A stretch of DNA of 64,000 nt, from positions 1 to 64,000 of the forward strand of contig CALMQM010000040.1 of NCBI GenBank assembly GCA_937871435.1, written 5' to 3'. The position numbers were made by a program, and so were the translations under genes. Every line of letters starts with the position of its first letter. Within the stretch, counting starts at the first letter, position 1. Source of the stretch: an uncultured Bacteroidota bacterium (GTDB lineage: Bacteria; Bacteroidota; Bacteroidia; AKYH767-A; 2013-40CM-41-45). Below the pieces are notes generated by a model, which saw only the letters and a program-made list of their open reading frames with translations, searched no databases and had not been told where the DNA came from. This document shows positions 22,667-59,536 of the stretch, piece after piece.

Positions 22667-25600
22667 ATGAAACACACTCACACCATGAAGCAGGTTTCCT
22701 GCTTCCCGAAAAATTTATTGTCCAAACATTCATCCACAGGTATTCTGTTATTTATTTTCCTGATCCTGTCAGGATATGCAAAAGCCACGGATGAATGTAT
22801 GATGTTACCTATTCCTGTTCAGGACAGAGTTCAATCGGCTTCTTTGATCACAGAAGCGGAAGTAATGAGCACAAGTTCCTTTTGGAATAAGCAGCACAAC
22901 ATGATCTTTACCGTGAGTCACCTGAAAATTTACAAAGTTTTCAAAGGAAATAAGAACCTGAGAGAATTTGACATTATTACCACAGGTGGGACAGTTGGAT
23001 TGGATAGAATAGAGATGACATCTAATCTTATTCTTCATCCGGGACAGCAAGGAATTTTCTTTTGTAACGTGTCAGGACTTGATACGAGAATTTCCTACCC
23101 GGGTGTAACAACGTTGTATGACGCATATGGTCTACAGCAAGGATTTGTAGAGTACAACCTGAGTGAGAATTCAGCATCTACTCCCTTCTTCCAATTTTCA
23201 TCTATCACCGGACAATTGTACAATGAAGTGATGAGTTATACTGGTATTCAGTTTCAACAAGTAGAAACAAATGTGAAACTGAACCAAAGTATCCAACAGC
23301 TTGCGGTACCCAAGACAGGCGGAAATACGACGCAGGCTGTACCTACAATTACGAACTTCACTCCTACCAGTATCACAGCCGGAACACATTCAATATTGAC
23401 AATCAATGGTACAAATTTCGGAGCAACAAGAGGTACAGGGTTTGTCGAATTTAAAAATGCGAATGATGGCGGAGCAACCTATGTAAAGGCAAAAGTGAAT
23501 GATTATCTGACCTGGACGAATACTCAAATCACTTTGTATGTTCCCAGCAGCTCACTTTCAGGTGGACCTTCAGCAGGAACCGGAACGATTCGTGTCACGA
23601 ACAGTGACCCAAATTTTGTTGTGAGTGCTTCTCAACTCACAATCACCTATTCGCACATCAACGTTGAATTCAACAGCACAGGCTTTTATACTGAACACAT
23701 AAATGATAACACTACCGGTGGTTATACTTTTCAGTTTAATTCGACCCGTTTTGCTACCAATGCTCCGGCTGTGGCTGCTTTTACCAGAGCAATGAATACA
23801 TGGACATGTAACACCAATATAAACTGGATTATCGGTGCCAATACTGCAGTCGATACTGTTCTTGCCGATGGAATTAACATAGTTCGTTTTGACATTGGTC
23901 CATCCATGCCGACGAATGTACTTGGAACTGCAACAAGCCGCTTATCAGGTTGCGTGGGTGGTGTTGATACAGTATGGACAGTAACAGAAATCGATGTGAT
24001 TTATGATGATGGAGCCGCAGGTTTAGCCTGGCAATACGGGCCAACACTTGCGAACATTAATCAGATAGATTTTGAATCCGTAACTGTTCATGAATTGGGT
24101 CACGCACATCAGTTACAGCACATCATTCTTTCGGGAGCAGTCATGCACTATGCCATTTCCAACGGTCAAAATACCAGGACGCTGAGTGCAGCCAATGATA
24201 TTGCAGGAGGAAATTATGTGCTTACAAAAAGTTTTGCCACGCATGGTGCCTGTAAAACATCTGGTTCACAAATGACAGCATTAAGCCTTGCCGCCAGCGT
24301 AAGTATAGCTGCAAATCCCGGTAATAACGTGTGTGCAACGAGTAGTGTTACTTTCACTGCGACTCCGGTGCTTCCTGCCGGAACTCCTGTTTATCAATGG
24401 AAAAAGAATGGGGTGAATGTCGGGACAAACAGCACTTCTTATACCAATGCAAGCTGGGTAAATGGAGATATAGTCACTTGCGTAATGACTGTCAGCGGAG
24501 GTTGTAATGAAGTGAAAACTTCCAATGCCATTACTATGACCGTCAATGCAGCATCAGCAGTGAGTGTTTCCATTGCCGCGAGCCCTTCCAGCACAATCTG
24601 TTCAGGAACAAACGTCACTTTCACTGCCACTCCTACCAATGGTGGAACACCGGCATATCAATGGAAGAAGAATGGCGTGAATGTGGGAACTAACAGCGCA
24701 ACATATTCTGATGCAACTCTTGCAAATGGAAATACAATCAGTTGTGTGATGACAAGCAGTTTGGGCTGTACGACTGGAAATCCGGCCACTTCAAATACAA
24801 TCACAATGACGGTAAACGCCAATGTCGCTGCCAGTGTGAGTATTGCTGCAAGTCCATCAGTCAATATTTGTTCAGGAACCAATGTGACATTTACAGCAAC
24901 ACCGACTAATGGAGGCCCGACTCCCGTTTATCAATGGAAAAAGAACGGAGTGAATGTCGGCACAAACAGTGTGACCTATTCTGATGCCGGACTTGCGAAC
25001 GGGAATACAATCACCTGTACAATGACAAGCAATGCGAACTGTGTAACCGGAAGTCCGGCCACTTCCAATACACTCACAATGACAGTTACAGCTTCCGTTG
25101 CTGCAAGTGTAAGTATAGCCGCCAGTCCTGCCGGTACTATTTGTTCCGGAACCAATGTCACATTCACAGCCACACCAACTAATGGAGGCAGCACACCTGT
25201 TTATCAATGGAAAAAGAATGGCGTGAATGTAGGAACAAACAGTGTGACTTATTCGGATGCAACACTTGCGAATGGAAATACCATCACTTGTACGATGACC
25301 AGCAATGCTACCTGTGTTACCGGAAATCCTGCTACCTCCAATACAATCACGATGACCGTAACAACTCCTGCAGCGGCCAGTGTTTCAATCGCAGCAAGTC
25401 CATCTTCTACTATCTGTTCGGGTACCAGTGTGACATTTACTGCTACTCCTGTTAATGGCGGTGTACTGCCCTCTTATCAATGGAAAAAAAATGGAGTGAA
25501 TGTTGGATTAAACCTGACAACTTATACTGATGGAGCTTTAGCCAACGGCGATGCAATTCAATGTGTGTTGACAAGTAATCTGAGCTGTGTTTCAGGAAGT

Positions 25601-28087
25601 CCGGCCACCTCCAATACCATTAGCATGACTGTAAATCCAAATTTACCAGCAAGTATCAGTATTGCAGCTTCTCCTTCCACTACAATTTGTTCAGGAACTA
25701 ATGTCACCTTCACTGCGACACCAACAAATGGAGGCTCCACTCCTGTTTATCAATGGAAGAAAAATGGAGTCAATGTGGGACTAAATAGTAATACGTATTC
25801 AGATGCCGCATTAGCAAATGGCAATACCATAACCTGTACAATGACCAGCAATGCCACTTGCGTAACCGGTAGTCCTGCAAATTCAAATACACTAACAATG
25901 ACGGTGAATGCAAATGTTCCGGCAAGCGTGAATATAGCGGTATCTCCATCCAATACAGTTTGTGCGGGAACTCTCGTCACCTTCGCCGCAACACCCACTA
26001 ATGGAGGCACAACTCCTGTGTACCAATGGAAAAAAAATAATTTAAATGTAGGTACCAATAATTCCGCATATTCAGATGCATCCCTTGTCAACAGTGATAT
26101 TATTACCTGTGTCATGACAAGTAATGCAACTTGTGTTACCGGAAGTCCGGCCACTTCGAACTCAGTGACAATGACTGTTAATCCAAATCTTCCTACAAGT
26201 GTGAGCGTGAGTGCCTCTCCTTCTACTACCATTTGCAGCGGAGCTGTTGTGAATTTTACCGCAACACCAACCAACGGAGGCACAACTCCGGTTTATCAAT
26301 GGAGAAAGAACTCAAGCAACGTCGGAACAAACAGCCCAACTTATTCTGATGGAAGTCTTTCGAATAATGACACTGTGTATTGCATTTTAACAAGTAATGC
26401 AACCTGTGCGACCGGAAGTCCGGCAACTTCGAACAAATTAATCATGACAGTGAATACAATATTTCCAGTGAGCGTAAGTATAGCAGCCAGCCCTTCCACA
26501 TCGATCTGCAGCGGAACAAACGTCACTTTTACTGCCACTCCTGTAAACGGTGGAGCCTTGCCGACATACCAATGGAAAAAGAACGGTGTGAATGTGGGCA
26601 CAAACAGTCCTTCCTATTCTGATGCAGGACTTGCGAATGGAAACAGCATTCAATGCGTTCTTACGTCAAGTCATACTTGTTCTTCCGGGAATCCGGCAAC
26701 ATCGAACACTATAACAATGACTGTTACTAACAATGTAGCCGCAAGTGTCAGCATTTCGGTTTCACCGGCCGCAAATATCTGCCAGGGTACAAATGTGACG
26801 TTCACTGCTACACCAACCAACGGTGGAGCTTCACCTGTATATCAGTGGAAAAAGAATGGTGTAAATGTCGGGACGAACAGCACAACCTATTCAGATGCTA
26901 CACTTGCAAATAGCAATACTATCAATTGCGTAATGACCAGCAATGCTTCTTGTGTTACAGGAAATCCTGCAACATCAAACACTGTAACAATGACTGTTCT
27001 ACCGAATGTTACTGCATCTGTCAGTATTGCAGCAAGTCCATCCGTTTCCATTTGCTATGGAACCAACGTTACATTTACCGCGACGCCTACCAACGGAGGT
27101 CAGCCGGTATATCAATGGAAAAGAAACGGTGCCAATGTAGGATCCAACAGTTCAACTTATTCGAATGCGACGTTAACTAATGGGAATACTATCAGTTGTG
27201 TAATGACCAGTAACGCGACATGTGTATCAGGAAATCCGGCTGCTTCAAATACACTTACAATGAGTGTGGATTCAATTCCAAAAATCACTTCATTCACTCC
27301 TGGAAATGGAAGCGTGGGCAACAGCGTGGTGATTACCGGTTCGTATTTCTCTTCCGCAACACAGGTGCAATTCAACACTACAAATGCAACATTTGTTGTG
27401 AACAATGCAAATCAGATAACTGCTACTGTTCCAGCAGGTGCGACAAGTGGTACAATTAAAGTGATTAATCCATGTGGAACCGGAACTTCCCTTACAAGTT
27501 TTACAATTAATCCAAGTTCGGTCACGCTGACATTAACGGTATTTATCGAAGGGTATTATCTGAATGGAGCTCCGATGCCTGCTGTTATCAATCCTGGAAT
27601 ACATCCAAATGTTTGTGATACTGTAACTGTGGAATTGGTAAGTCCGGGAAATACAACTGTTGTGCAGGCCAGTGACAAGAAAACAATTGGTACCAATGGC
27701 GTAGGAACATTTACTTTCCCCGGCAGTATGATTGGCTCATTCCACTGGATCGTTGTGAAGCATCGTAATTCCATTCAAACCTGGAGTGCTGCTGCAGTTA
27801 ATTTTCCCGGATCTACAGTAAGTTATAATTTTACAAATGCTCAGAATCAGGCATTCGGAAGTAATCAAATTGCAAATGGAGATGGCACATTTTCAATTCG
27901 AAGTGGTGATGTGAACCAGGATGATCTCATTGAATCGACCGATTTTGGATCCATAGAAAATGCTTCTCAATCATTCCTTTCTGGTTATGTGAGTGAAGAT
28001 TTAACGGGAGATAATCTTGTTGAATCATCTGATTATGGATTGGGAGAAAATAACTCTCAGCTGTTCCTTTTCGCAATCAAACCTTAA
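22667..28087 (+). CDS. Giant secreted matrixin-like metalloprotease with 11 Ig-like repeats and dockerin-like C-terminus
   Basis: The 1806-residue protein begins with a signal peptide (hydrophobic about 25-41). Layout: an N-terminal domain of unknown family (about 45-220), an IPT/TIG domain (about 224-325) and a matrixin-like zinc protease (about 330-520). The zinc site HELGHAHQLQH (475-485) and Met-turn GAVMHYAI (Met493) fit M10 peptidases, except that the usual Gly of HExxHxxGxxH is Gln482. Eleven Ig-like repeats follow (about 542-1536), each with YQWKKNGVNVG and a Cys pair. A second IPT/TIG domain (about 1537-1620), a beta domain and two Ca-binding loops (DVNQDDLIESTD and DLTGDNLVESSD) end the protein. 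No type A or B T9SS tail is visible. It is probably a surface adhesin-protease. A strong terminator follows. Confidence 0.9.
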   Translation: MKHTHTMKQVSCFPKNLLSKHSSTGILLFIFLILSGYAKATDECMMLPIPVQDRVQSASLITEAEVMSTSSFWNKQHNMIFTVSHLKIYKVFKGNKNLREFDIITTGGTVGLDRIEMTSNLILHPGQQGIFFCNVSGLDTRISYPGVTTLYDAYGLQQGFVEYNLSENSASTPFFQFSSITGQLYNEVMSYTGIQFQQVETNVKLNQSIQQLAVPKTGGNTTQAVPTITNFTPTSITAGTHSILTINGTNFGATRGTGFVEFKNANDGGATYVKAKVNDYLTWTNTQITLYVPSSSLSGGPSAGTGTIRVTNSDPNFVVSASQLTITYSHINVEFNSTGFYTEHINDNTTGGYTFQFNSTRFATNAPAVAAFTRAMNTWTCNTNINWIIGANTAVDTVLADGINIVRFDIGPSMPTNVLGTATSRLSGCVGGVDTVWTVTEIDVIYDDGAAGLAWQYGPTLANINQIDFESVTVHELGHAHQLQHIILSGAVMHYAISNGQNTRTLSAANDIAGGNYVLTKSFATHGACKTSGSQMTALSLAASVSIAANPGNNVCATSSVTFTATPVLPAGTPVYQWKKNGVNVGTNSTSYTNASWVNGDIVTCVMTVSGGCNEVKTSNAITMTVNAASAVSVSIAASPSSTICSGTNVTFTATPTNGGTPAYQWKKNGVNVGTNSATYSDATLANGNTISCVMTSSLGCTTGNPATSNTITMTVNANVAASVSIAASPSVNICSGTNVTFTATPTNGGPTPVYQWKKNGVNVGTNSVTYSDAGLANGNTITCTMTSNANCVTGSPATSNTLTMTVTASVAASVSIAASPAGTICSGTNVTFTATPTNGGSTPVYQWKKNGVNVGTNSVTYSDATLANGNTITCTMTSNATCVTGNPATSNTITMTVTTPAAASVSIAASPSSTICSGTSVTFTATPVNGGVLPSYQWKKNGVNVGLNLTTYTDGALANGDAIQCVLTSNLSCVSGSPATSNTISMTVNPNLPASISIAASPSTTICSGTNVTFTATPTNGGSTPVYQWKKNGVNVGLNSNTYSDAALANGNTITCTMTSNATCVTGSPANSNTLTMTVNANVPASVNIAVSPSNTVCAGTLVTFAATPTNGGTTPVYQWKKNNLNVGTNNSAYSDASLVNSDIITCVMTSNATCVTGSPATSNSVTMTVNPNLPTSVSVSASPSTTICSGAVVNFTATPTNGGTTPVYQWRKNSSNVGTNSPTYSDGSLSNNDTVYCILTSNATCATGSPATSNKLIMTVNTIFPVSVSIAASPSTSICSGTNVTFTATPVNGGALPTYQWKKNGVNVGTNSPSYSDAGLANGNSIQCVLTSSHTCSSGNPATSNTITMTVTNNVAASVSISVSPAANICQGTNVTFTATPTNGGASPVYQWKKNGVNVGTNSTTYSDATLANSNTINCVMTSNASCVTGNPATSNTVTMTVLPNVTASVSIAASPSVSICYGTNVTFTATPTNGGQPVYQWKRNGANVGSNSSTYSNATLTNGNTISCVMTSNATCVSGNPAASNTLTMSVDSIPKITSFTPGNGSVGNSVVITGSYFSSATQVQFNTTNATFVVNNANQITATVPAGATSGTIKVINPCGTGTSLTSFTINPSSVTLTLTVFIEGYYLNGAPMPAVINPGIHPNVCDTVTVELVSPGNTTVVQASDKKTIGTNGVGTFTFPGSMIGSFHWIVVKHRNSIQTWSAAAVNFPGSTVSYNFTNAQNQAFGSNQIANGDGTFSIRSGDVNQDDLIESTDFGSIENASQSFLSGYVSEDLTGDNLVESSDYGLGENNSQLFLFAIKP
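24290..27274 (+). repeat. Eleven in-frame tandem Ig-like repeats, mostly an exact 273-bp period
   Basis: The codon pair for YQ of the YQWKKN motif falls at 24392, 24656, 24929, 25202, 25475, 25748, 26021, 26294, 26567, 26840 and 27110. Nine successive intervals are 264 once and then 273 eight times; the last interval is 270. Only the first and last spacing deviate. Each unit encodes about 91 residues with an ICSGTNVTFTATPTNGG start, a YQWKKNGVNVGTNS core and an ATSNTITMTV end. These are coding repeats inside the matrixin-like gene, not a mobile or CRISPR array. Confidence 0.95.
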
Positions 28088-28115: not shown

Positions 28116-28144
28116 AAACAGTCCCGGAAAAACCGGGACTGTTT
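28116..28144 (+). terminator. Intrinsic terminator of the giant matrixin-like gene
   Basis: A 12-bp stem (AAACAGTCCCGG and CCGGGACTGTTT) encloses a 5-base A loop and is followed by a T-rich tail (CATTTTATT). It starts 29 bases after the stop codon, separating the giant gene from lgt. Confidence 0.88.
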
Positions 28145-28216
28145 CATTTTATTCACTTTCCAGTTTGCAAATCTATTCGCACATTTACACTTCTAAAAAA
28201 TCAGCCTTAACACTCT

Positions 28217-30238: not shown

Positions 30239-32053
30239 TTATTCTTTAATGAATCGTAATGTTTTAGATTTTTCTGCTGTATAAATTCGGATAAAATAAA
30301 TTCCTTTTTCCATCCTTTCAACATTAACTGAATTCTCAACTATTCTTCCTGACTGAATTATTTTTCCGGTCATATCTATCAACTCAAAAAAATGTTCTGA
30401 AGCAACGGAATTATCGCCAAAAGAAACTGATAACATTGAGTGAACCGGATTCGGATAAATAGAAATTTCAGTTGATTCAATAACTGAATTTTCCATTGTT
30501 GGATTCACCTCCCTTGCTGGTGCAGAAAGTGTTCTGAAGGTAATTGAAGTGCTGTAGGCACTATTCCCACTGCTGCATAAGGATTGTAAGCTTACTTCAT
30601 AATTCGTATTCTTTTTCAATCCGGTTAATACGTATGAAAAAGTTCCACTCGTCCATGTAAATGTACGGGTGGTATACGGACCTGTTCCAACTTTCCTGAA
30701 ACGAATTCTGAATTGAGGAGCTGTTGCTCCACTCCAGTTGATTCTTGCACTTGTGGTTGCAATGTTTGTAATATTCACATTCGAGGGAACCGAACAATTG
30801 TACCCTGCAGTAACTGTTGTGGTCTGCGATTGGCTGGCACTGCATCCGGCTGGACTTGTGTACGAATATGTTATTGAATATGGACCACCTGCACCCGCAT
30901 TAGCCGGTGAGAAAACAGATCCTGAAATTCCAGCACCTGAAAATACACCTCCTGCTGGAGTTCCGACAAGTGTAACCGGTGCACTCAAAGTTGTGTAACT
31001 TGAATTGAGCCCGCTGAAACTGACAACCGGAATTGGATTCGCTGTTACTGTAACCGCTGTGGAAGTAAAGCTACAAGAGGCACTGGATGCAGTAACTGAA
31101 TAGGATCCTGATGAAGTTGCAGTATAACTCTGACCAGTTGCTCCGACAATAGCTGTTCCATTATTCTTCCATTGAAAAGTATAGGCCGGAGCCGCATAGG
31201 ATGCTGTTAAAACAACAGAATTACCCTGACAAAAAGACAAAGGTCCGCCTGCGTTTACACTCAAAGCAACGGGAGCGGCAGCTGAAACTGCAGCAGTGGT
31301 AACTGTATTGCAGACATTGCTGATTCTGCAAGAATAACTTCCGCTTTGTCCGGAAGGAATTGTATATTGATATGTGGTCCCACCTGTTATTGTCGCCCCG
31401 CTTTTAAGCCATTGATACCCGTTGCCGCTGACATTCGGAACAGACAAGATTCCACAGCTTGAATTGACTGTGATAGTTGTTCCTGAAACAACCGGAGAAA
31501 CAAAATTCAGTTGAATGGCGCCGGTTACAATGGACCCACAAGTGTTACTGACCTGACAGGAATACAAACCACTTGAGGTTCCTGTGTAAGAATAATTTGT
31601 AGCTCCGGGAATGTTCACTCCGTTTAATTTCCATTGATACGAACTCCAGAAAGTTCCGGGAATACAAAGACCTGGTCCAACATACATTGTATATCCGCTT
31701 CCCGAACAAATCTGAGGTGGAGGAAACGGCATGATTACGGTATTGAAATCCTGCAATGCCCTTACACGAACAGGCGGAGAAGAACTTTGTAAACCTCCGG
31801 ACCAGGTAGCAACGCAATACCAATCTCCGGATGGAGCATTGAAACTTTGTCCGCTCGCTTGTGGCATAAACATACAACCGAATTTATACCACTCATATGA
31901 AACAGCTCCTGACGGACTTGCAACCAAAGTGGTTGTTGTTACAGTTCCACATAAATCCACAATTCCAGAGGGGCTTGTGGTGAGAGCGGGCTGAGCGAAT
32001 ACGTTAAGTATAACGAATGATAGGATGTAAACAATGAGTACAAGTTTTTTCAT
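30239..32053 (-). CDS. T9SS type A cargo protein with Ig-like and fibronectin type III domains
   Basis: The 604-residue secreted protein has a signal peptide (MKKLVLIVYILSFVILNVFA). Several Ig-like modules follow, with the recurrent strand pattern YQWKLNGVNIPGATNYSY, YQWLKSGATITGG and FQWKNNGTAIVGATGQSY. An FN3-like domain (about 420-505, CSVPSNVNITNIATTSARINW) comes next. A type A sorting tail ends the protein (SIYPNPVHSMLSVSF to KTLRFIKE, about 530-604), which directs export through the type IX system and attachment or release at the surface. There is no enzymatic domain, so it is probably adhesive or structural. The Ig modules share the YQWK theme with the giant matrixin-like protein nearby but are more divergent. 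Confidence 0.92.
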   Translation of the reverse strand: MKKLVLIVYILSFVILNVFAQPALTTSPSGIVDLCGTVTTTTLVASPSGAVSYEWYKFGCMFMPQASGQSFNAPSGDWYCVATWSGGLQSSSPPVRVRALQDFNTVIMPFPPPQICSGSGYTMYVGPGLCIPGTFWSSYQWKLNGVNIPGATNYSYTGTSSGLYSCQVSNTCGSIVTGAIQLNFVSPVVSGTTITVNSSCGILSVPNVSGNGYQWLKSGATITGGTTYQYTIPSGQSGSYSCRISNVCNTVTTAAVSAAAPVALSVNAGGPLSFCQGNSVVLTASYAAPAYTFQWKNNGTAIVGATGQSYTATSSGSYSVTASSASCSFTSTAVTVTANPIPVVSFSGLNSSYTTLSAPVTLVGTPAGGVFSGAGISGSVFSPANAGAGGPYSITYSYTSPAGCSASQSQTTTVTAGYNCSVPSNVNITNIATTSARINWSGATAPQFRIRFRKVGTGPYTTRTFTWTSGTFSYVLTGLKKNTNYEVSLQSLCSSGNSAYSTSITFRTLSAPAREVNPTMENSVIESTEISIYPNPVHSMLSVSFGDNSVASEHFFELIDMTGKIIQSGRIVENSVNVERMEKGIYFIRIYTAEKSKTLRFIKE

Positions 32054-57862: not shown

Positions 57863-59536
57863 TTAACGAAGAAGTACCAGTTTCCCCTTTTTCTCAACTA
57901 TGTCACCCTGACGAACACTGTACTGTGCTTTGTAAACATAAACTCCTTCTTCCTGTAACTTCCCTCTGTATTTTCCATCCCATCCGGTGAATTGATTCTC
58001 TGTTTCAAAAATAAGCTGTCCCCACCGATTAAATATTTTCAAATTATAATTCGATAGTTCACTGCCGGAAGGAATAAACTCTTCATTTTTTCCATCCTGA
58101 TTTGGTGTGAAAGCATTTGGAAAAATAATATCATTGAGACAATCTTCAATAATTTCAATTGAATCTGAAGTCGTACAGCCTGCATTATTTACAATTTTCA
58201 CACTGTACTTTCCTCCCCTGTCCACAATAAATTTCTCCTGTGTGGAAGCATCTTGCCACAAATAGCTTTGAAAATTTCCCGCGTCAAGAATAAACAATGA
58301 ACCGGGACAAAGTGTGGTATCATTTCCCAAATCAACCAATGGAAAGGCATCAGGACCTATAGGTACATTCACCGTTGCATTCACATCACAAGCATCCGCT
58401 GTGGATACAAGCACTGAATAATCTCCGGAACTCAATCCTATAGCAGTGGTTGTATTCTGTATCGGATCAGTATCCCAGGTATACAGACTGACTCCGGTTG
58501 AGCCCGACACCTGAACACTTGCAGTGCCATCCTTACTGTTTACACATGTTTCAGGAGTGGATGACATCGCAGCGGAAAGAATAGTAATCTCAGTGTTGGA
58601 GCTCACTTCAGGCAGACAATCATTTCCAGAAAATAAAGTCACCGTATATTTCCCCGGACCAGAAAAGGTGTGCTGTGGATTCTGTTCTGTACTTGTATTG
58701 CTGACTGATCCCGGATCATTAAAATTCCAGCTCCAATGTGTATGACATCCTGTTGTATCAGAAAATTGAATGGTATTGCCAGAACCGCAACTCCAGGAAT
58801 AAGAGAATGGAACGGCTGTCGCTTCCTCAATTCTGAACTGATCAAAAGCAAAACCATCGTAATCATTGCAGGTTGTACCGGACCCAAAAATGAAACGGAA
58901 AATCACCTGAGTTTGACCATTCAATTCAGACAAACAATGTTTTGCGGTTTTCCATTCTCCACTACCATGTCCTCCTCTGCATGAACCGGATGTATTCTGA
59001 ACCGTTCCGGCCCAGCCCTGAGTTCCATTTGTCATTCCACCGAGATTCGTTACGTTATTTACGTTGTACCAATTTTGATCAACACAATTGTCAGGTTCGG
59101 AATAGGAACCAAGTGTTCTCCATGAAAGTCCTCCGTCAGTTGAATATTGAAGATTGGCACCGTCATACAAATATTCAGTATCCCAGAATATGCTGACAAT
59201 AAGAACAGGTTTAATAAGACTGCTCAAATCAAAACAAGGACTCTTCACCCAGGATCTTTCTCCATAATTGTAAAAAGGAGTTACCAATCCTCCGGTGATC
59301 CAACATTGTGTACCACTCGCGGCGGAAGAAATCACGGATTTGGAAGGAGTACCAAGAGCCCAATCGGAATTGCTTCCACCTGAAGTCCATCCTGCAGGGC
59401 CACTCTCAAAATCTTCCGCATATGGGTACGAAGAAACAGGAACCCCACATTGTCCAAAAGACACAGTTTGCATCAGGAAAAGATCCAATGCAAACAGCAG
59501 GCTTAAAACCCCAATTATTTTCCTGATTCTGATCAA
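57863..59536 (-). CDS. T9SS type B cargo protein with PKD domain (CHU_C tail)
   Basis: The 557-residue protein has a signal peptide (about 1-29, ending VSFGQ) and a MAM/jelly-roll-like region (about 30-235; YPYAEDFESGPAGWTSGG, GFAFDQFRIEEA). A PKD domain (about 245-325; WSWNFNDPGSVSNTSTEQNP, GPGKYTVTL), further Ig-like strands and a C-terminal type B/CHU_C sorting domain follow. The last begins FPNAFTPNQDGKNEEFIP and ends YRGKLQEEGVYVYKAQYS plus VLLR. Type B tails mark export through the type IX system, usually with a PorP/SprF-type partner. No PorP/SprF gene is visible next to it. The probable role is adhesion or surface structure. Confidence 0.93.
   Translation of the reverse strand: MIRIRKIIGVLSLLFALDLFLMQTVSFGQCGVPVSSYPYAEDFESGPAGWTSGGSNSDWALGTPSKSVISSAASGTQCWITGGLVTPFYNYGERSWVKSPCFDLSSLIKPVLIVSIFWDTEYLYDGANLQYSTDGGLSWRTLGSYSEPDNCVDQNWYNVNNVTNLGGMTNGTQGWAGTVQNTSGSCRGGHGSGEWKTAKHCLSELNGQTQVIFRFIFGSGTTCNDYDGFAFDQFRIEEATAVPFSYSWSCGSGNTIQFSDTTGCHTHWSWNFNDPGSVSNTSTEQNPQHTFSGPGKYTVTLFSGNDCLPEVSSNTEITILSAAMSSTPETCVNSKDGTASVQVSGSTGVSLYTWDTDPIQNTTTAIGLSSGDYSVLVSTADACDVNATVNVPIGPDAFPLVDLGNDTTLCPGSLFILDAGNFQSYLWQDASTQEKFIVDRGGKYSVKIVNNAGCTTSDSIEIIEDCLNDIIFPNAFTPNQDGKNEEFIPSGSELSNYNLKIFNRWGQLIFETENQFTGWDGKYRGKLQEEGVYVYKAQYSVRQGDIVEKKGKLVLLR

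Follow-up and report, generated by a model that had tools for sequence, protein, structure and literature searches.

A matrixin-like protease of an uncultured Bacteroidota bacterium with a remotely TIMP/NTR-like N-terminal domain and a dockerin-like C-terminal module proposed to act in T9SS sorting

The window analyzed here, a stretch of 64,000 nucleotides from an uncultured Bacteroidota bacterium, encodes a matrixin-like protease with a remotely TIMP/NTR-like domain at its N-terminus and, at its C-terminus, a recurring dockerin-like module in the place where related proteases carry a T9SS type A CTD. We read this protein as a T9SS-type secreted protease with an inhibitor-like N-terminal domain, a variable stalk and an alternative sorting module, a reading to which we give an even chance. 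According to this proposal, the signal peptide would direct Sec export, the N-terminal domain would probably hold the enzyme latent or shield its active site, and the module, replacing a type A CTD, would be the likely outer-membrane sorting or anchoring signal for export by the T9SS. The Ig stalk would serve as a spacer holding the protease out, and the protease would act on extracellular proteins. The latency mechanism, the T9SS dependence and the surface location are inferred from comparisons of sequences. The further proposal, that the module represents a so far undescribed class of signals for T9SS sorting or anchoring, interchangeable with type A CTDs, and that the protease carries a TIMP-like inhibitor domain in cis, is offered tentatively, as a possibility on the doubtful side.

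The features of the gene and of the region directly behind it are as follows:

22667..28087, + strand: whole gene, intact, 1806 aa (ORF list; 61%-identical orthologous core in genome G006).
22667..22795, + strand: N-terminal segment, putative signal peptide, residues 1-43 (direct reading; relatives have the same hydrophobic stretch before Cys).
22796..23065, + strand: TIMP/NTR-like N-terminal domain, residues 44-133, with invariant Cys44 (18-19 relatives aligned; weak Pfam NtA/TIMP matches; hhalign 76%).
23342..23629, + strand: first TIG domain, residues 226-321 (PF01833).
23657..24283, + strand: matrixin-like catalytic domain, residues about 331-539 (PF00413 in 18/18 members; hhalign 98.3%).
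24089..24121, + strand: zinc motif HELGHAHQLQH, residues 475-485 (no variation at its His, Glu and Gly among 18 sequences).
24143..24145, + strand: Met493, predicted Met-turn (AVMHYAI; invariant in 18 sequences).
24293..27277, + strand: array of eleven Ig-like repeats with a period of about 91 aa, residues about 543-1537 (Ig_3; Tandem Repeats Finder; unit alignment).
27278..27505, + strand: second TIG domain, residues 1538-1613 (PF01833, best stretch).
27518..27904, + strand: first half of the C-terminal module, residues 1618-1746, with a KHRN..QTWS signature (11 genome copies; 27-member alignment; no Pfam or NCBIfam model).
27905..28084, + strand: second half of the module, type I dockerin-like doublet, residues 1747-1806, with Lys-Pro at the stop (PF00404 in 23/27; solved dockerins; terminal X-Pro).
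28118..28151, + strand: likely intrinsic terminator, with a perfect inverted repeat of 10 bp (ACAGTCCCGG/CCGGGACTGT) ahead of TTTCATTTT.

The single frame of 1806 residues described by the first-pass annotation is confirmed as intact by the ORF list. The protein starts with a signal-peptide-type hydrophobic segment, and cleavage is putatively placed near ...GYAKA/TDEC; both were judged by eye.

At the level of profiles, the protease domain is a matrixin relative. Peptidase_M10 (PF00413) matched the whole protein with 24.7 bits and its core with 27.7 bits at a cut-off of 24, and it matched all 18 family members as well. In hhalign, comparison of the family profile with that of ordinary Bacteroidota matrixins gave a probability of 98.3% (E 1.8e-13); the aligned part starts at the helix preceding the active site and extends to include the Met-turn. 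The matrixin-type zinc protease proposed in the first-pass annotation therefore stands at the sequence and profile level. Residues H475, E476, H479, H485 and M493 are invariant in the alignment of 18 sequences, and Met493 aligns with the Met of ordinary matrixins in the profile-profile comparison; on this pattern, the domain is predicted to have zinc-dependent proteolytic activity. The Gly required by the M10 motif HExxHxxGxxH is replaced by Gln482 in the window protein. It is kept in the relatives L005 (HELGHLHGIEH) and L041 (full HEIGHGLGLGH), which marks Gln482 as a change within the family; L041 also has the N-terminal domain, TIG and protease in the same order as the window protein. Relatives of residues 42-544 occur in 19 of the 42 genomes of the order, and the AlphaFold model of residues 40-546, built with five sequences, had a pLDDT of 36. 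Matrixins had also been called uncommon in Bacteroidota, which is incorrect, since PF00413 exceeded its cut-off in 96 of 296 genomes, a count in which some short matches may represent other HExxH peptidases.

The region preceding the first TIG domain, overlooked by the first-pass annotation, is a conserved domain (residues 44-133) that forms part of the family core and starts with an invariant Cys in the alignment of 18-19 relatives. The NtA and TIMP families have the NTR/OB fold in common. Among 19 members, NtA (PF03146) matched four (best E 0.0052) and TIMP (PF00965) two (best E 0.21), none of these matches lying over the curated cut-off and none falling on the window copy. Against a bacterial TIMP-family profile built from four domains of TIMP-family proteins, hhalign gave 76% (E 2.3e-5, score 35), and the alignment placed the Cys of the domain opposite the first Cys of that profile. 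As controls, 20 column-shuffled profiles reached at most 0.8%, and unrelated profiles (TIG, catalytic, repeat, C-terminal) at most 0.5%. We treat this likeness as remote similarity and not as membership, as the window domain differs from TIMP/NTR proteins in lacking CxC, in having a Cys that is not the first mature residue and in being fused to a protease. A search of the PDB with the domain profile returned chance matches only, and this part of the AlphaFold model had a pLDDT below 35.

The remoteness of a similarity confined to profiles, the lack of a Pfam match over cut-off or of a PDB match, and the one Cys where TIMPs have CxC would also suit an ordinary conserved beta domain that is no kin of TIMPs and that aids folding or binds a ligand without any inhibition. 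We consider this reading to fall just short of an even chance, given that the hhalign E-value, the alignment of its Cys with the first one of bacterial TIMP-family proteins, and the low values of the shuffled and unrelated controls argue against it. If the N-terminal domain is instead TIMP-like and inhibitory, the window protein would unite a bacterial protease and a TIMP-like regulator in one chain, a case that would bear on the origin of TIMP-type metalloprotease control.

With regard to the way in which such inhibition might work, Cys44 is single, without the second Cys of CxC, and it lies 2-5 residues inside the mature protein as judged from the cleavage read by eye; chelation of the TIMP style, via the N-terminal amine, is therefore unlikely. 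Cys381 is found in 18/18 sequences and Cys429 in 17/18, while Cys397 and Cys412 occur together in the same 10 sequences, a distribution that offers Cys44 no obvious partner. This suggests a cysteine-switch role, with Cys44, near the mature N-terminus, as a candidate zinc-blocking thiol. Attachment as a lipoprotein via Cys44 was rejected, because the residues preceding it in the family (TDE, AQ, DL, DNLS) form no lipobox. Small Bacteroidota proteins matching the TIMP family (L109-L112) were found in only 4 of 198 genomes, and several of them have CxC right behind a likely signal peptide, as in animal TIMPs.

Two known systems can be compared with this arrangement. Karilysin of Tannerella forsythia is a T9SS-secreted relative of matrix metalloproteases with a CTD unlike the classical form, and its 14-residue N-terminal pro-region has been held responsible for latency (PMC4404884). 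The window protein shares with it the HExxHxxxxxH zinc motif and the Met-turn, and also resembles it as a Bacteroidota enzyme with a putative N-terminal pro-region and predicted T9SS secretion. In contrast to the 14-residue pro-peptide and the KLIKK-ending CTD of karilysin, it has a 90-residue TIMP-like domain, two TIG domains, an Ig stalk, a dockerin-like module and Gln for the motif Gly. Potempins are small lipoproteins encoded beside the KLIKK proteases of T. forsythia and reported as their inhibitors (PMC7296668). They resemble the present case, by analogy only, in pairing a secreted Bacteroidota protease with an inhibitor-like part; potempins are separate lipoproteins, whereas the window protein would join protease and inhibitor-like domain in one chain.

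At the other end of the protein, the dockerin-like doublet proved to be half of a recurring 190-aa C-terminal module (residues 1615-1806), which is present in 11 copies in the host genome, in 21 of the 42 genomes of the order and in 35 of the 296 genomes of the phylum. Its first half, with the HRN..TWS signature, corresponds to no Pfam or NCBIfam family in any of 27 copies. PF00404 matched 23/27 sister copies, one sister protein exceeding the cut-off (23.1 against 22.9), and the profile of the module also matches type I dockerins of solved structure. As Pfam gives no match for the window copy itself, the dockerin-like C-terminus of the first-pass annotation is supported indirectly, through its relatives. 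By its loop motifs the doublet is predicted to bind Ca2+; the AlphaFold model of the C-terminus, built with three sequences, had a pLDDT of 35. A short form also exists: L071, L072, L074, L075 and L076 end right after the HRN domain (ETWSKNPVLFN...), without the doublet. The sister proteins carry a P-proprotein domain, Sortilin/BNR repeats, SprB repeats or a T9SS-associated galactose-binding domain (GBD_T9SS_assoc), which is consistent with surface or secreted cargo.

The position of the module is narrowly defined. It ends no more than six residues from the stop in 61 of 66 screened copies, although these are mainly from one order, related to each other and picked up through their likeness to the window copy, and thus do not represent independent events. 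Sixty of these 61 terminal copies end in X-Pro or in Pro plus one aromatic residue. The remaining one (L152, G009:C7:106906-108139) has an in-frame stop inside the dockerin doublet, which probably reflects a damaged gene or faulty assembly. Two further copies of the 66 end in Pro, 7 and 9 residues past the profile match, and the last three are internal, have no Pro ending and belong to proteins that end in a type A CTD (TIGR04183, 35-39 bits). The only internal copy of the host genome (L090, G000:C121:42000-58500) lies near the N-terminus of a 2869-aa protein with such a type A CTD at its end. Outside the set of 66, a copy in L073 was matched in its first half only; TIG-like repeats come after it, and the protein has a different end. 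In the wider phylum, module copies are also found near the stop, with more varied endings.

The same exchange is seen within the protease family. TIGR04183 was found at the end of seven protease relatives that could be read to their end (six over cut-off), and it had no match in the window protein or in its G006 orthologue, both of which carry the module, as do L077 and L078. In the sequences compared, the module and type A CTDs are mutually exclusive at the terminus. No NCBIfam model of a T9SS signal, type B and type C included, matched any of 27 module copies at E values up to 0.1. The host genome encodes SprA (2699 bits), at least 105 type A tails and 20 type B tails. SprA was found in 35/35 module-bearing genomes compared with 229/296 overall; the hypergeometric value of 6.6e-5 for this association takes no account of kinship, and as the SprA-negative genomes listed come mostly from one family, the association may itself reflect kinship.

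Published T9SS signals comprise types A, B and C (PMC10202324), and a 2025 study of T9SS shuttle proteins mentions no further type (PMC12618676). The module resembles CTDs of these types (TIGR04183, TIGR04131 and the ChiA type) in being C-terminal, in replacing type A in related proteases and in occurring, within our sample, only together with SprA, but it differs in its 190-aa length, its dockerin-like doublet, its X-Pro end and the lack of a match to NCBIfam T9SS signals. Neither the module signature nor a dockerin-like T9SS signal was found in the open-access literature, which is weak evidence of novelty.

Two other explanations of the module have to be weighed. If it were a true dockerin, it would dock the protease to a cohesin partner in a cellulosome-like surface complex, and export through the outer membrane would proceed by other means. 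The duplicated Ca2+-loop motif, the PF00404 matches in most copies and the likeness to solved dockerins all agree with this, and 11 different proteins of one genome carry the module, as would be expected if they were enzymes of one complex. We nevertheless regard it as unlikely. The doublet is preceded by an unmodelled domain, unlike in type I dockerins, and in some genomes the first half stands alone as the C-terminus. The lone cohesin match of the host genome lies below the cut-off, which makes a dockerin-cohesin complex less likely, with the reservation that a remote cohesin might have escaped the search. This reading would also leave unexplained why the copies end exactly in X-Pro and why type A CTDs are excluded. 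Similarly improbable is a structural end cap or ligand-binding domain that takes no part in sorting, in proteins that are periplasmic or otherwise exported. The internal copy of the 2869-aa protein on contig C121 suits such a domain, but a following type A CTD combined with a missing X-Pro marks precisely the three internal copies, and the sister proteins hold cargo-type domains such as SprB repeats and GBD_T9SS_assoc. If the module is a sorting signal, as we propose, annotation of T9SS secretomes misses a cargo class in about one in eight Bacteroidota genomes, and a defined module whose presence at the terminus excludes a type A CTD would make the question of T9SS recognition directly testable.

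Between the protease and the module lies the stalk, for which the first-pass annotation had described eleven near-identical Ig-like units. The two IPT/TIG domains that it had called in the protein are confirmed (43.7 bits, cut-off 20.9). Ig_3 matched repeatedly (104 bits), Tandem Repeats Finder reported a period of 273 bases over part of the array, and the anchor YQW(K/R)(K/R)N, spaced 88-91 aa apart over residues 576-1482, gives eleven units. The count is therefore right, but the units are not near-identical, as their pairwise identity is 51-88% with a mean of about 71%, figures from an alignment that left two of the eleven units merged. NCBIfam matches of PRK00872 and PsaC to the repeats, far below cut-off, were dismissed as spurious.

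The stalk varies among relatives: the G006 orthologue, which is the closest relative with 61% core identity, starts with a few Ig units and continues with repeats of other types, those of L077 are different again, and the Adhaeribacter relatives have none. As it is not conserved, we consider it an accessory spacer and not part of the protein core, and it may hold the protease off the cell. That the protein is a stalked adhesin with an inactive protease-like domain, an alternative of the first-pass annotation for which no specific support was found, is very improbable: the long Ig stalk and the metzincin Gly changed to Gln would fit it, but 18 relatives show no change in the zinc ligands, the catalytic Glu or the Met, and it is the stalk, not the protease, that relatives lose.

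The genes adjoining the protease gene are housekeeping in appearance, as judged by eye, and together with the likely terminator behind the protease gene this makes the gene context uninformative on function. Long antisense ORFs within the Ig repeats (24872-25207 and 25750-26283, both on the - strand) are a product of repeat composition and were therefore not counted as genes. At 30239-32053 (- strand), a 604-aa protein with Ig-like and fn3 domains and a C-terminal T9SS type A CTD (50.2 bits) represents a nearby cargo with an ordinary T9SS signal, and at 57863-59536 (- strand) a 557-aa protein has a T9SS type B CTD (60 bits). Proteins with type A, type B and module ends are thus all encoded in this one window.
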